Origin: Spirochaetes bacterium GWE1_32_154
GTDB taxonomy: Bacteria > Spirochaetota > GWE2-31-10
Assembly (NCBI GenBank): GCA_001829315.1
Contig: MIAY01000008.1
Coordinates: 124,001 to 188,000, forward strand
DNA length: 64,000 nt
Direction of reading: 5' to 3'
In this document: one piece after another, positions 13,555 to 19,072 of the stretch
How the letters are laid out: every line of letters starts with the position of its first letter
Numbering within the stretch: the first letter of the stretch is position 1
Made by a program: the position numbers and the translations under genes
The notes under the pieces: model-generated
What the model saw: the letters and a program-made list of their open reading frames with translations, nothing else
The model's database searches: none
What the model was told of the DNA's origin: nothing

Positions 13555-14384
13555 ATTTTTTCAGGTTGTATTAAAAATGTTCCTCTATCACCGCATTTTA
13601 TTTTTTTTGCTGAATAGTCAAAAATCCGTTTGAAAAATGGATGTATCATCCCTGATGTAAAACCACTTCCAAATCGTGTATAACCGGTTACCTTCAGATT
13701 GTATCTTTTTAAAAGCATAATCAGTCCTTTTTTTGAAGGAATTTGAATATGTTCATCAGGCATGAAAAAACGCCATTTTGCACCAAAAAAGTTTTGAACA
13801 AAACCTGATAGTGGAACTTCGATTATAATAGAAGAATCCGGTTTAGTGATTCGTATACTATTTTCCATGAGTGATTGAATATCGGGAATATGTTCAAGAA
13901 CATTAAAAAGAAATAAAGTATCACAAGAAGATGTTTTAATGTCATCTAAAGATCCGTTAATGAGTGTGACGCCGTTTAAATCAATGGAATTTAAAAGCTC
14001 ATCAGATATGTCAATACCAATCGTTTCTTTGCTATTCATTTCAACCAGATAGCGAAGAAAATGCCCATTTGCACAACCTAATTCGATATTGGTTTTATTT
14101 GGGATTGTTTTACTATCAAATCCGATTTCTTTCAATGTCATATTTCTTTCATTTTTTAATGCATTATACCCCTGTTGATTAAGATACCCGGGATTCATAT
14201 TTTTTTTGATTTCTCTATAATTATTGTAGTATTCTTTAATTGTATTTTCATCCGGTAAAGGATATTGCATGATTGAACCGCATCGCTGACATGTATAATA
14301 GGTAACAGTTTTATTGTTTTCTGAAGATTGTACATGATAGCGTTTTTTATGTTTTGTTGAATTACAATAATTGCATTGAATCAT
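13542..14384 (-). CDS. SAM-dependent methyltransferase with N-terminal zinc ribbon
   Basis: Class I methyltransferase. The N-terminal CNYC and CQRC pairs form a zinc ribbon (about residues 4-35). The Rossmann core follows: IELGCANGHFLRYL (motif I, SAM-binding, near 100), TIGIDISDELL, and FLFNVLEHIPD near 155. The C-terminal half includes the insertion FFMPDEHIQIPSKKGL common in methyltransferases that modify sugars or small molecules. This architecture often occurs in polysaccharide or lipid modification, but no glycosyltransferases are nearby. It overlaps the upstream GHKL-HDOD gene by four bases, so the two are translationally coupled. The substrate is unknown. Confidence 0.82.
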   Translation of the reverse strand: MIQCNYCNSTKHKKRYHVQSSENNKTVTYYTCQRCGSIMQYPLPDENTIKEYYNNYREIKKNMNPGYLNQQGYNALKNERNMTLKEIGFDSKTIPNKTNIELGCANGHFLRYLVEMNSKETIGIDISDELLNSIDLNGVTLINGSLDDIKTSSCDTLFLFNVLEHIPDIQSLMENSIRITKPDSSIIIEVPLSGFVQNFFGAKWRFFMPDEHIQIPSKKGLIMLLKRYNLKVTGYTRFGSGFTSGMIHPFFKRIFDYSAKKIKCGDRGTFLIQPEKIKPL

Positions 14385-15856
14385 AGATGATCCACTATTT
14401 TTTTTATATCGTCAGGGGTGTTTATTCTGAAGAAATCCAGAGACTCTTTATTCATATTGGTATATATTTTTTCATAGTCTTTATTATGATTTTCAATACA
14501 ATTCGCAAAATAAACAAAATACACAATATCTTTATTTTCTTCATGTGATTTCTCGGGAGAGTGATGATTATCTATAACATCGATAAGTAAATCAGGAAAA
14601 TTCCATTTTCGAGCCAGTAAACCACCGATTGTTCGATGATTAATCCCTTGTGCAATTTTTTCAATCAGACTTAATGATATTTCTTTGTCATGACATATTT
14701 TATTAATTGAAGTAATGAAGGTTTCATCAATTGCAATAGCGAGGATTTTTCCAAGATCGTGGAGCAAGGCAGCAATATAGAGGTTTTCAAGTAAATGTCT
14801 GTGTAATTTCTTTTTTGCCAGAGAGAATGCTATATTTGCGACATTATTACAATGAGTGAATATCCCCTGTAATTTTTCTGTTTTATATCTTTCTTTGAGT
14901 ATTTTTTCACTGCCATACGAATAAATAATTGATTTTAAACCGGATAATCCTATTGTTTTTATTGCATCACTAATGGAAGAAACTTCTCTATACGTAAGAT
15001 ATAGTGGTGAATTTGAAAATTTAATAATTCTACCGGTTAATGCTGCATCTCTTATTACGACTTTTGAAAGTTCTTTGATATCAATGTTATCATTTAGAAG
15101 CATATTCTGAATTTGCATTATATGCTCGGGGAATTGTGGGATATCTTCTATCTCGCTCAGGATAGTGTCTTTAATGAATTCCTGATTTTCTGCAGTTGTC
15201 ACTGATAATGGTATTTTAATAGTTGAGTGAGTTATTCTGTCGTCAGAAAATATAATTAGATTATTTTGATCAAGATTTAATTTTTTTAATATTAAAATTG
15301 AGATAATAAGTCCTAATCCGGCACCTTCAGGATTATTTGTTACTGTTATCATAGCATCTTCAATTGATTTGAATTCAGTGGCATTTTGAATTTTATCATT
15401 GATTACTTTTTTTTCTTCATTAGTAAGACATGAATTATTTTCTATTGTGATTTCAAGAATATCATCAATAATTGTATAGCCGGTTTTTATATAAAAACCT
15501 TGCTCAGGCAGACTTTCTGTAAATTTATCCGTTTCAGAGATCAACGCTTTTTTAAAATTAATCATACCTTTACTATAATCATCTTTATTGGTTATCGTAA
15601 GGTTATTTTCGATAAAATATAATCGTTTTAAATTGCCTTTTTTTGCATTATTTAATATCTCTCTGTATATGTAACTGATATAATCAAACACATTATCTTT
15701 GCCTATATTTATTAATAATTTCTTTAATAGAATATTAAGAAAATCTTCTTCTTCAACGGTGAGTTTACTGCATTCAATTTGAAAATTTAAATCTTTTAAA
15801 AAAACATCAATAAGTTGTTCATGTGATGATTTATCTATTGAAAATACATTTTTCAT
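14381..15856 (-). CDS. GHKL ATPase-like / HDOD signalling protein (paralogue 1)
   Basis: Two-part signalling protein. The N-terminal 220 residues look like a histidine-kinase-type ATPase: YIYREILNNAKKGN is an N-box-like helix and EGAGLGLIISILILKKL a G2-box, but the G1 DxGxG is replaced by IENNSCL. The C-terminal half is an HDOD domain (about 235-430) with IPQFPEHIMQIQNML, the helix around TGRIIKFSNSPLYL, and LLHDLGKILAIAI. HDOD domains are noncatalytic HD relatives used in signalling. A 494-residue paralogue with the same order lies at 50845-52329. It precedes the methyltransferase gene with a four-base overlap and follows deoC by 12 bases, inside a metabolic operon. The output is unknown. 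Confidence 0.82.
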   Translation of the reverse strand: MKNVFSIDKSSHEQLIDVFLKDLNFQIECSKLTVEEEDFLNILLKKLLINIGKDNVFDYISYIYREILNNAKKGNLKRLYFIENNLTITNKDDYSKGMINFKKALISETDKFTESLPEQGFYIKTGYTIIDDILEITIENNSCLTNEEKKVINDKIQNATEFKSIEDAMITVTNNPEGAGLGLIISILILKKLNLDQNNLIIFSDDRITHSTIKIPLSVTTAENQEFIKDTILSEIEDIPQFPEHIMQIQNMLLNDNIDIKELSKVVIRDAALTGRIIKFSNSPLYLTYREVSSISDAIKTIGLSGLKSIIYSYGSEKILKERYKTEKLQGIFTHCNNVANIAFSLAKKKLHRHLLENLYIAALLHDLGKILAIAIDETFITSINKICHDKEISLSLIEKIAQGINHRTIGGLLARKWNFPDLLIDVIDNHHSPEKSHEENKDIVYFVYFANCIENHNKDYEKIYTNMNKESLDFFRINTPDDIKKIVDHL

Positions 15857-15868
15857 TATATACTCCGA

Positions 15869-16540
15869 TTAAAGGCTTTTATCTATGATTTCCAATCCTT
15901 TCGATGAACCAATTATATCAGCACCGGCATGTAACAGATTTACACAATCTTCAAGAGTTGCAATGCCCCCTGACGCTTTAATTTTAATTTTATTTTCTGT
16001 TAATGATTTTAGAAATCGAATACCATTTTCATCAGCTCCACAGGTTCCAAATCCGGTTGAAGTTTTTACTACATCACAGCCGGTTTTTATTATCAGATTA
16101 ACAATCAAACTGATTTGTTCTTCATTTAAATAACATGTTTCAATAATAATTCGTAATTCTTTGCCTGATGTTGCTTTTCGTATTGATGATAGTTCTTTTT
16201 CTATTAAAGGAATACTGGTCTTGTTAGTTGTACAATTTTTCAATAAAGAAATATTTAAAACAACATCAATAAAAGTTGCCCCGTCGTTGATCGCTTTTTC
16301 AGCTTCAAAGACTTTTGTTTCAACGCAATTGTACCCGAAAGGGAAGCCGATAACGGTTGCAATTTTATCTTTTGAACTGATTAGTTTCATCGCATCCCGA
16401 ACAAAAACAGGAGGTATGCAAATAGAATTAAAGTCTTTTCCGGCACTTTGTTTAATGAAATTATAATAGACATTCGCTTCAATACCCGGTTTGAGAATAG
16501 TGTTATCTATTTTAGACGCTAATTCATTAATTGATATCAT
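15869..16540 (-). CDS. deoC: Deoxyribose-phosphate aldolase
   Basis: Class I aldolase that cleaves 2-deoxyribose-5-phosphate to glyceraldehyde-3-phosphate and acetaldehyde in deoxynucleoside breakdown. The Schiff-base lysine lies in CDVVKTSTGFG (near residue 155), and the second active-site lysine in IKIKASGGI (near 185). The early segment DNTILKPG is a slightly divergent DHTxLKP. The N-terminal Asp/Lys relay and TIM-barrel length (223) are standard. The gene overlaps the end of purD by four bases, joining salvage and de novo purine functions in one transcript. Confidence 0.94.
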   Translation of the reverse strand: MISINELASKIDNTILKPGIEANVYYNFIKQSAGKDFNSICIPPVFVRDAMKLISSKDKIATVIGFPFGYNCVETKVFEAEKAINDGATFIDVVLNISLLKNCTTNKTSIPLIEKELSSIRKATSGKELRIIIETCYLNEEQISLIVNLIIKTGCDVVKTSTGFGTCGADENGIRFLKSLTENKIKIKASGGIATLEDCVNLLHAGADIIGSSKGLEIIDKSL

Positions 16541-17778
16541 GAGCCAATATCCTTTCTATAGAAAGAACCTTCAAAGCTAACCTGAGTGGCAAGTTTATAT
16601 GCTTTCTGAAGTGCTTCTTCTTTTGTTTTTGCTGTTGCAACGGCATTAAGCACACGGCCTCCGTTGGTAACAATTTCACCATGCATAAAAGCTGTTCCTG
16701 CATGAATATAGTCTTTCATAGACGTTTGAAATGAAATCTTTTTCCCTTTTTCATACTGTGCGGGGTAGCCTGCTGATGCGATAACAACAGATACTGCATA
16801 TTCATTTTTCCATTGCACCTCATTGAATTGTAAATTACCTGTTGCAGATTGATAAAAAATCTCAAGTAGATCATTATCAATTAATGGCATAATACCCTGG
16901 GTTTCAGGATCACCAAATCTGCAATTAAATTCAACAACTTTTGGGCCCTCATTTGTTAACATAAGACCTACATATAAAACACCGCGATAATCAAAATTTT
17001 CATTTTGAAAGCCTTTAATTATTCCGGGCATTACATCACTTTCTATTTTTTCTTTAAGTTTTTGTGTTAGTGAATTATGAGGCGCATAACAACCCATTCC
17101 ACCTGTATTATCACCCTGATCATTGTCATAGGCTCTTTTATAATCTTTTGCAGCAATAAGTTGAACAAATTTCTTACCGTCTGTAAGATAGAAAACGCTC
17201 ATTTCTTCACCGGTCATAAACTCTTCAATAACAATTTTATTACCTGATTTCCCAAGTGTGTTGTCTATCATATAGTCTTGTAACGTATGTAATGCTTCTT
17301 TTTCATTTAACGCAATTTTGACACCTTTGCCGGCAGCAAGGCCGTCTGCTTTAATCACCGTTGGATACTTTTTCAATGATTTTATGAACGTAACTGCATC
17401 ATCGTAATCTGTAAAAACATTAAAACCGGCAGTTGGAACATTATATTTTTTCATAAATTGTTTTGAAAAATCTTTACTGCCTTCAAGCATAGCTCCTTTT
17501 TTAGTCGGCCCGAATACTGGAATACCAAACTTTGCGGCTTCATCAGCTAAACCGGCAACAAGATATGTTTCAGGACCGGAAACAATTAAATCTATAGCGT
17601 TTTCCTTTGCCCAGAGTGCAATAGAGTCAATAGAATCATCACATTGAGCTTTTTCTGCTAAAGATTCAATACCGGGATTCCCGGGAAAACAAAAGAACTT
17701 TGTCAATTTTTGTGATTCTGCAATTTTTTGTGCAATTGCATGTTCTCTACCGCCACTGCCTATTAATAAAACTCTCAT
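16537..17778 (-). CDS. purD: Phosphoribosylamine-glycine ligase (GARS)
   Basis: ATP-grasp enzyme of purine synthesis: phosphoribosylamine plus glycine plus ATP gives glycinamide ribonucleotide. Visible motifs are LLIGSGGREHAIAQKI at the N-terminus, FGPTKKGAMLEGSKDFSKQFM, the ATP-grasp lysine in VIKADGLAAGKGV, and metal-binding VEFNCRFGDPETQ. Length 413 matches stand-alone bacterial PurD. No other pur gene lies in the window. The upstream element on this strand is tRNA-Leu (17842-17926), so purD could be part of a tRNA-led transcript. It is coupled to deoC by overlap. Confidence 0.96.
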   Translation of the reverse strand: MRVLLIGSGGREHAIAQKIAESQKLTKFFCFPGNPGIESLAEKAQCDDSIDSIALWAKENAIDLIVSGPETYLVAGLADEAAKFGIPVFGPTKKGAMLEGSKDFSKQFMKKYNVPTAGFNVFTDYDDAVTFIKSLKKYPTVIKADGLAAGKGVKIALNEKEALHTLQDYMIDNTLGKSGNKIVIEEFMTGEEMSVFYLTDGKKFVQLIAAKDYKRAYDNDQGDNTGGMGCYAPHNSLTQKLKEKIESDVMPGIIKGFQNENFDYRGVLYVGLMLTNEGPKVVEFNCRFGDPETQGIMPLIDNDLLEIFYQSATGNLQFNEVQWKNEYAVSVVIASAGYPAQYEKGKKISFQTSMKDYIHAGTAFMHGEIVTNGGRVLNAVATAKTKEEALQKAYKLATQVSFEGSFYRKDIGS

Positions 17779-17841: not shown

Positions 17842-17926
17842 TGCCCGGAATGAGACTTGAACTCACAGGAACTTATCGTTCACTAGAATCTGAATCTAGC
17901 GTGTTTACCAATTTCACCACCCGGGC
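17842..17926 (-). tRNA. tRNA-Leu (anticodon CAG)
   Basis: The minus strand folds into a full class II tRNA. The acceptor stem GCCCGGG pairs with TCCGGGC, and the D-loop carries GGTAAACAC. The anticodon stem CTAGA/TCTAG holds the loop TTCAGAT with anticodon CAG. A long variable arm (GAAC/GTTC) and T-arm GTGAG-TTCAAGT-CTCAT follow, with discriminator A. The 3' CCA is not encoded. The 5' half overlaps the 3' end of the LCP reading frame. Confidence 0.96.
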
Positions 17927-19072
17927 TTTTGAACCGATAACAATATGATTGTTAACTAAGAGTTTAACATTATTTATCCATCTTTTCAAATCAAATTTGA
18001 TGAAATCCATATATCCTATTTTGATTTGAGAAAGTATCGGATTACTTTTTTCATCTGAGTAAAAAAGGAGTGATAATCTTTGCGGTATATTTTCATTTAA
18101 TTTCCAGCAGGATAGATTTTGCCTATTCAAGAGTTTTGAATCAAATACATCAAAATTCCCGGGAAGTACAGATGTATAAAAATGTGATTCGGGATTAAAA
18201 TTATTTGTTTTAAAGATGTAGAGTAGTTTTATAAAGTCTTCTGTAGTTAGATCTGTTTGAACAATTTTTCGTAAACTTGAAAATAATATTGTTGAAATAA
18301 AAACATTTCCATTTCCGGTTATTTTCCATAATTTATTAATCGATTTTTTTAAAAATACCTGATGCCGTTTACACCGGTCAATATCACCAAATTTGAAACT
18401 TCGATTTCTAATCCATTGAACGCCTAATTTTCCTTCAAGTTTTTTATCAATTGATACTCCGCCAATAATAGAAAGAAATGCCTCAAAACTTCTGAAATTA
18501 TCAATTATTACTACTTTATAGATAGGACTGCCAATGAGTGTTTCACAACTTTTTTTTAAACCATCCAAACCATTCCAGTACATACTGTGACCGATTTTAT
18601 CAAGATATTCTTTATTATTTGAACCGTATACTGTAATTAATGTATCTCGTGGTATAGAAATTGATAAAACTTTACCTTCCGGAGTTATTCGTATTATGAT
18701 AATGACATCAGCTCTTGACTTTGAGACGTAAAAATCCTTTTTATCACTTCCGGTAACAAGTATATTTATTCCATTATCCCAATCACTATTTTTTAAATCA
18801 CGTAAATCATCTTTATATTTCAAGTCATATGCATTATGTGCTTTTTCAGGATTATAATTAAGGTGACTATAGTCGTCAAAACTATTAAATGAATTATTAA
18901 TTACTTGAATGTTGCCTTTTTTATTTTTGAGAGCTTCATTAACAGTAGAATTTATGTTGATAATATATCGTGTGTATTTCATTATGTTTATACAAAGTAT
19001 GAAAGAAGCAAATGTGATAAGAGTCAATAAAAGAATTCTTTTTAAAATTGAATATAATTCATGTTTATCCAT
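17873..19072 (-). CDS. LytR-CpsA-Psr (LCP) family protein, 3' end overlapping tRNA-Leu
   Basis: Membrane-anchored LCP protein; the family transfers polyisoprenoid-linked glycopolymers to the cell wall or related acceptors. A single N-terminal membrane helix (about residues 12-30) is followed by a short linker and the LCP core: INILVTGSDKK, RADVIIIIRITPEGKVLSISIPRDTLI with the family Arg, KIGHSMYWNGLDGLKKSCETLIG, and FKFGDIDRCKRHQVFLKK. The frame has no stop before the tRNA: the last 17 or so residues (ARVVKLVNTLDSDSSER) are simply the translated 5' half of tRNA-Leu, ending at a TAA in the variable arm (17873-17875). The true functional end is probably near residue 381. RNase P cleavage would remove the stop codon from the mRNA. 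Confidence 0.85.
   Translation of the reverse strand: MDKHELYSILKRILLLTLITFASFILCINIMKYTRYIININSTVNEALKNKKGNIQVINNSFNSFDDYSHLNYNPEKAHNAYDLKYKDDLRDLKNSDWDNGINILVTGSDKKDFYVSKSRADVIIIIRITPEGKVLSISIPRDTLITVYGSNNKEYLDKIGHSMYWNGLDGLKKSCETLIGSPIYKVVIIDNFRSFEAFLSIIGGVSIDKKLEGKLGVQWIRNRSFKFGDIDRCKRHQVFLKKSINKLWKITGNGNVFISTILFSSLRKIVQTDLTTEDFIKLLYIFKTNNFNPESHFYTSVLPGNFDVFDSKLLNRQNLSCWKLNENIPQRLSLLFYSDEKSNPILSQIKIGYMDFIKFDLKRWINNVKLLVNNHIVIGSKARVVKLVNTLDSDSSER

Follow-up and report, generated by a model that had tools for sequence, protein, structure and literature searches.

In the 64,000-nucleotide stretch of DNA from an uncultured spirochaete that was analysed (the window), a cell-wall-enzyme gene of the LCP (LytR-CpsA-Psr) family (17873–19072, minus strand) was found to continue without a stop codon into the tRNA-Leu(CAG) gene that follows it on the same strand (17842–17926). 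We consider it probable that LCP and tRNA-Leu(CAG), followed by purD, form a conserved mRNA-tRNA unit in which the LCP stop codon has been lost in this one lineage. The LCP frame starts with an ATG at 19072 and consists of 399 codons followed by a TAA at 17875–17873. The 1146 bases ahead of the tRNA make up 382 whole codons, so that the frame enters at tRNA base 1, and codons 383–399 are tRNA sequence encoding the 17-residue peptide ARVVKLVNTLDSDSSER. The overlap (17873–17926, minus strand) comprises these 17 LCP codons and the stop codon TAA, which corresponds to tRNA bases 52–54 in the loop of the variable arm (GAAC-GATAA-GTTC). A preliminary description of this DNA had claimed that the LCP frame has no stop codon upstream of the tRNA and that the last 17 LCP residues are translated tRNA, and the open reading frame together with the coordinates obtained from ARAGORN and Rfam confirmed both. 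It had also placed the TAA in the variable arm, as found here, and 54 bases inside the tRNA, which needs correction since 51 tRNA bases precede the TAA and base 54 is its end.

Gene order and transcription of tRNA-Leu(CAG)

LCP orthologues from eight genomes of the same order (42–56% identity) were compared. The family has three further members (L002, L003, and L006), and in each of them, as well as in L009 from a sister family, LCP was followed by a same-strand tRNA-Leu(CAG); in a third family (L004, L005, L007, and L008) no tRNA was found after LCP within the locus sequence examined. As judged from these comparisons, the order LCP-tRNA-Leu(CAG) is ancestral in the family. The two genes lie on the same strand, with a short gap or none, and their adjacency is conserved, as is characteristic of a tRNA embedded in an operon.

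The 80 bases upstream of each lead tRNA (a tRNA not situated closely behind another tRNA) were compared within this genome. Fifteen of the 16 other lead tRNAs were preceded by TTGACA or TTGACG and a -10 box, and in 14 of these 15 the -10 box was located 9–16 bases before the tRNA. The lead-tRNA promoters (L015–L041) were very uniform, with TTGACA, a spacer of 17–19, and a -10 box of the TATAAK type. The only other lead tRNA without a TTGAC promoter was tRNA-Trp, which is embedded in rpmG-trnW-secE-nusG and served as an internal control. In the sequence containing this cluster (L120, 398–980, minus strand; G000:C16), the order was tRNA-Thr(GGU)-rpmG-tRNA-Trp-secE-nusG, with tRNA-Trp located 8 nt after rpmG. 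No TTGAC-type promoter was detected in the 80 bases upstream of tRNA-Leu(CAG), and no terminator was found between this tRNA and purD in the window. A clear terminator follows the tRNA in L002/L011, and a weaker hairpin followed by T's was detected in L003 (L011 and L012 represent the same genomes as L002 and L003, respectively). In L111 and L112, in which tRNA-Leu(CAG) is located away from LCP, a promoter-like site was found 12 bases upstream of this tRNA (P 0.01). Cotranscription of LCP and the tRNA, which the preliminary description had taken as its premise, is thus likely in this genome, as the tRNA lacks the promoter type found at 15 of the 16 others and is not followed by a terminator.

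It is possible, but rather unlikely, that the tRNA is instead transcribed independently from a promoter inside the 3′ end of LCP, in which case the overlap would be of little consequence for RNase P and for LCP translation. A promoter-like site (TTGAAA-17-TAAACT, with TG before the -10 box; 17961–17989, minus strand) is present 34 nt upstream of the tRNA, and a strong one was found at a similar place in L009, where a near-consensus TTGAAA-16-TATAAT (approximately 2525–2588) is located within the 3′ end of LCP, 24 nt upstream of tRNA-Leu(CAG); in that genome the tRNA may thus be transcribed on its own. A site with an intermediate score was found in L003. However, the site in the window is weak and scored no better than shuffled sequences (P approximately 0.12), it differs from the lead-tRNA promoters of the genome in both boxes and in its distance to the tRNA, and in L002 and L006 nothing above the level of shuffles was detected at this place. 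Even with a promoter of its own, the tRNA would still be carried by transcripts reading through from LCP. A consensus promoter is hardly to be expected within coding sequence, and its absence is therefore not proof.

The LCP protein and its C-terminal end

The LCP product matched Pfam PF03816 above the cut-off (E 1.2e-12; 48.7 bits, cut-off 24.6) and NCBIfam TIGR00350 below it (48.5 bits, cut-off 62.3). The protein has an N-terminal membrane helix, an LCP domain, and a C-terminal helix of low confidence. Foldseek matches of its AlphaFold model (mean pLDDT 78) included TagV, TagT, TagU, Cps2A, and LcpA, with the best E-value (6.6e-13) for TagV of Bacillus subtilis (6uf3). Residues R120, D122, R142, D143, R222, R224, and R233 were invariant in an alignment of nine LCP orthologues and are candidates for the conserved Asp and Arg of the active site. 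In the model the fold is complete by approximately residue 350, which places the residues encoded by the tRNA beyond the domain; residues 354–398 were modelled as a single helix, and the last 30 residues had pLDDT values of approximately 56–61. With 382 amino acids ahead of the tRNA, compared to 361–389 amino acids in the orthologues, the protein is not truncated. The tail varied in length as well as in sequence among the orthologues, and the final codons ahead of the tRNA (17927–17956, minus strand) were conserved in none of the relatives, which had either a stop codon or a differing tail at this place. The preliminary description had suggested a search for the LCP tail elsewhere in the genome; this search gave a single LCP match, with no second match and no detached tail. 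By these alignments and the model, LCP is full length and the change is confined to an unconstrained tail, which is probably dispensable.

In the relatives in which the tRNA follows LCP, the gene has its own stop codon 47 bases (L002), 39 bases (L003), 2–3 bases (L006), and 11 bases (L009) ahead of the tRNA. Orthologues that end naturally at a comparable distance, which the preliminary description had named as refuting its reading, thus do occur, and stops positioned 2–47 bases before the tRNA indicate that the stop was lost locally and recently (unless the assembly is in error) and that the overlap is not an old junction.

An error in assembly or base calling appears unlikely; in that case, the actual LCP stop would be masked by a one-base insertion or deletion among the final codons, which are under little constraint, and no overlap would exist. 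Both other frames contain stop codons in the 32 bases directly ahead of the tRNA, and the overlap is known from a single assembly of 43 contigs, with no second genome of the genus found in the genome search. Similarity of LCP to its orthologues fades at approximately codon 373, but it persists in frame up to that point (DLKRWINNV-K compared to DFKNFMKNF-K). The error would need to fall within a short stretch, and the genes beside LCP are open at full length.

Features of tRNA-Leu(CAG) and frequency of the overlap

The tRNA-Leu(CAG) gene comprises 85 nt without an encoded CCA and was recognized by Rfam RF00005 (53.5 bits, cut-off 29), in agreement with ARAGORN and with the comparison of Leu tRNAs. 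The class II cloverleaf is intact and carries the anticodon CAG. When distinct tRNA-Leu genes were translated from their first base onwards, 31 of 33 were free of stop codons in this frame, the exceptions being the copy in the window and an unrelated one (L114). Among the tRNA-Leu genes sampled, this frame was nearly always open from end to end and encoded a peptide like ARVVELVDTLDSGS. With one sense frame of tRNA-Leu so rarely closed, protein frames can easily run into such a gene, and spurious genes are easily called. Selection for the variable-arm TAA was also considered from the two genes of the 33 that have a stop in this frame, and was set aside, since the observation is suggestive but the numbers are too small.

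A real protein gene running into a tRNA was found for one out of 165 distinct tRNAs in the loci examined from this genome and its relatives, when frames of at least 100 codons were considered. A second candidate, a 189-codon frame preceding a tRNA-His, was rejected as spurious, being antisense to a thiD-like gene. A search with the translated tRNA in 296 spirochaete genomes gave 41 matches outside the window, in open frames of 30–129 codons compared to 408 here; the tRNA-Leu matches outside the window came from 38 other spirochaete genomes. Thus, the overlap is rare, whereas it is common for a tRNA-Leu gene to lack stops in this frame. A literature search on overlaps between coding sequences and tRNAs in bacteria found nothing on point.

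The tRNA-Leu(CAG) in the window has A37, whereas G37 was found in each of the 11 further distinct Leu(CAG) tRNAs from spirochaetes and in all Leu(UAG) tRNAs compared. G37 is the site of m1G37 and is conserved in the GAG, UAG, and CAG isoacceptors of Leu (PMC8384417). Possibly the tRNA no longer depends on TrmD or is under relaxed constraint; as one observation in one assembly, A37 would fit the latter. Five Leu tRNAs were found in the genome (UAA, UAG, GAG, CAA, and CAG). The codon CUG is rare, at approximately 5.8 per 1000, compared to 870 UUA among 18,370 codons (window ORFs of at least 200 codons, with overlapping spurious ORFs included). The tRNA-Leu(UAG) could read CUG by wobble, which, together with the rarity of this codon, may be among the reasons that the overlap is tolerated.

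The probable shared transcript and its surroundings

The overlap most probably arose as a minor accident of evolution within a transcript shared by both genes. The stop codon would have been removed by a small mutation in the LCP tail, where constraint is lacking, and, with tRNA-Leu naturally open in this frame, the LCP frame would have been extended as far as the variable-arm TAA. The tRNA, having no promoter of its own, would be cut by RNase P from the LCP transcript, a step that finds moderate support in the promoter comparison. If the two are cotranscribed, cleavage by RNase P would separate the LCP message from its stop codon; the cut would fall between 17927 and 17926 and leave a stop-less message ending at codon 382 (AAA). 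A ribosome close behind the RNA polymerase may nevertheless complete LCP by reaching the TAA, and the tRNA would then refold and be cut; with just 51 tRNA bases to read such a trailing ribosome could reach the TAA first. On transcripts that are cut first, the ribosomes stalled on the LCP message would presumably be freed by tmRNA. Competition of LCP synthesis with tRNA maturation, and a rescue of the tmRNA type, had been predicted in the preliminary description and may both take place. A tmRNA gene is present in the genome (G000:C19; tag ANNNFALAA), but tmRNA is present in nearly all bacteria and its presence here is therefore no special evidence. Completion of LCP and maturation of the tRNA may thus be sequential and need not exclude each other, and either outcome would be cheap since the LCP tail is probably dispensable.

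A different outcome would be expected if the overlap were used, that is, if the variable-arm TAA had been retained or favoured by selection as the stop of LCP, with each transcript giving a complete message for LCP or else a mature tRNA-Leu(CAG). LCP output would then be tied to RNase P and to the demand for the tRNA, with tmRNA clearing the losers; we regard this as improbable.

The predicted shared transcript resembles secG-leuU of Escherichia coli, the polycistronic transcript of which was reportedly found by Mohanty and Kushner in 2008 to be processed by RNase P: in both, a protein gene precedes a tRNA-Leu gene in one transcript, with cotranscription predicted from sequence in the present case. 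The protein gene in E. coli is said to end before the tRNA, whereas the LCP stop in the window is inside it, so that the cut by RNase P would remove the stop. The rpmG-tRNA-Trp-secE-nusG cluster of the same genome is similar in that a tRNA for which no own promoter was found lies between protein genes, after a gap of 8 nt, but the stop codon of rpmG is retained ahead of the tRNA. Ordinary 3′ overlaps between genes that result from loss of a stop codon are likely to share the same origin, with a short gap and extension to the next in-frame stop. They differ in that the downstream gene at LCP is a structured RNA, and two readings would therefore compete for one molecule if LCP and the tRNA are cotranscribed. 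The overlap is best read not as a new kind of system but as a curiosity of modest weight that may serve to test translation versus RNase P. One RNA segment would have to act both as coding sequence and as tRNA, which would provide a clean natural case, and it may allow a test of how a transcript is shared between translation and RNase P and of the tolerance of the cell for a nonstop message.

Downstream of the tRNA, the order LCP-tRNA-purD-deoC was common to L011, L012, and the window. The purD gene (16537–17778, minus strand; TIGR00877, E 1.5e-151) starts 63 bases past the tRNA; the other gene names in these neighbourhoods were read from translations. Further downstream, L012 contained methyltransferase, phosphoesterase, and ParB-like genes matching those in the window. 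An old recombination or integration at the tRNA that removed the natural end of LCP, as the preliminary description had proposed and as the common use of tRNA genes as integration sites might suggest, is extremely improbable, since the gene order is ancestral and relatives keep it to the left as well as to the right of the junction, and nothing is missing from LCP, which is full length and without a second match in the genome. Between deoC and the methyltransferase gene, the window contains a gene encoding 491 amino acids (14381–15856, minus strand; HDOD/HD-like by eye); in L012, deoC and the methyltransferase gene adjoin without it.
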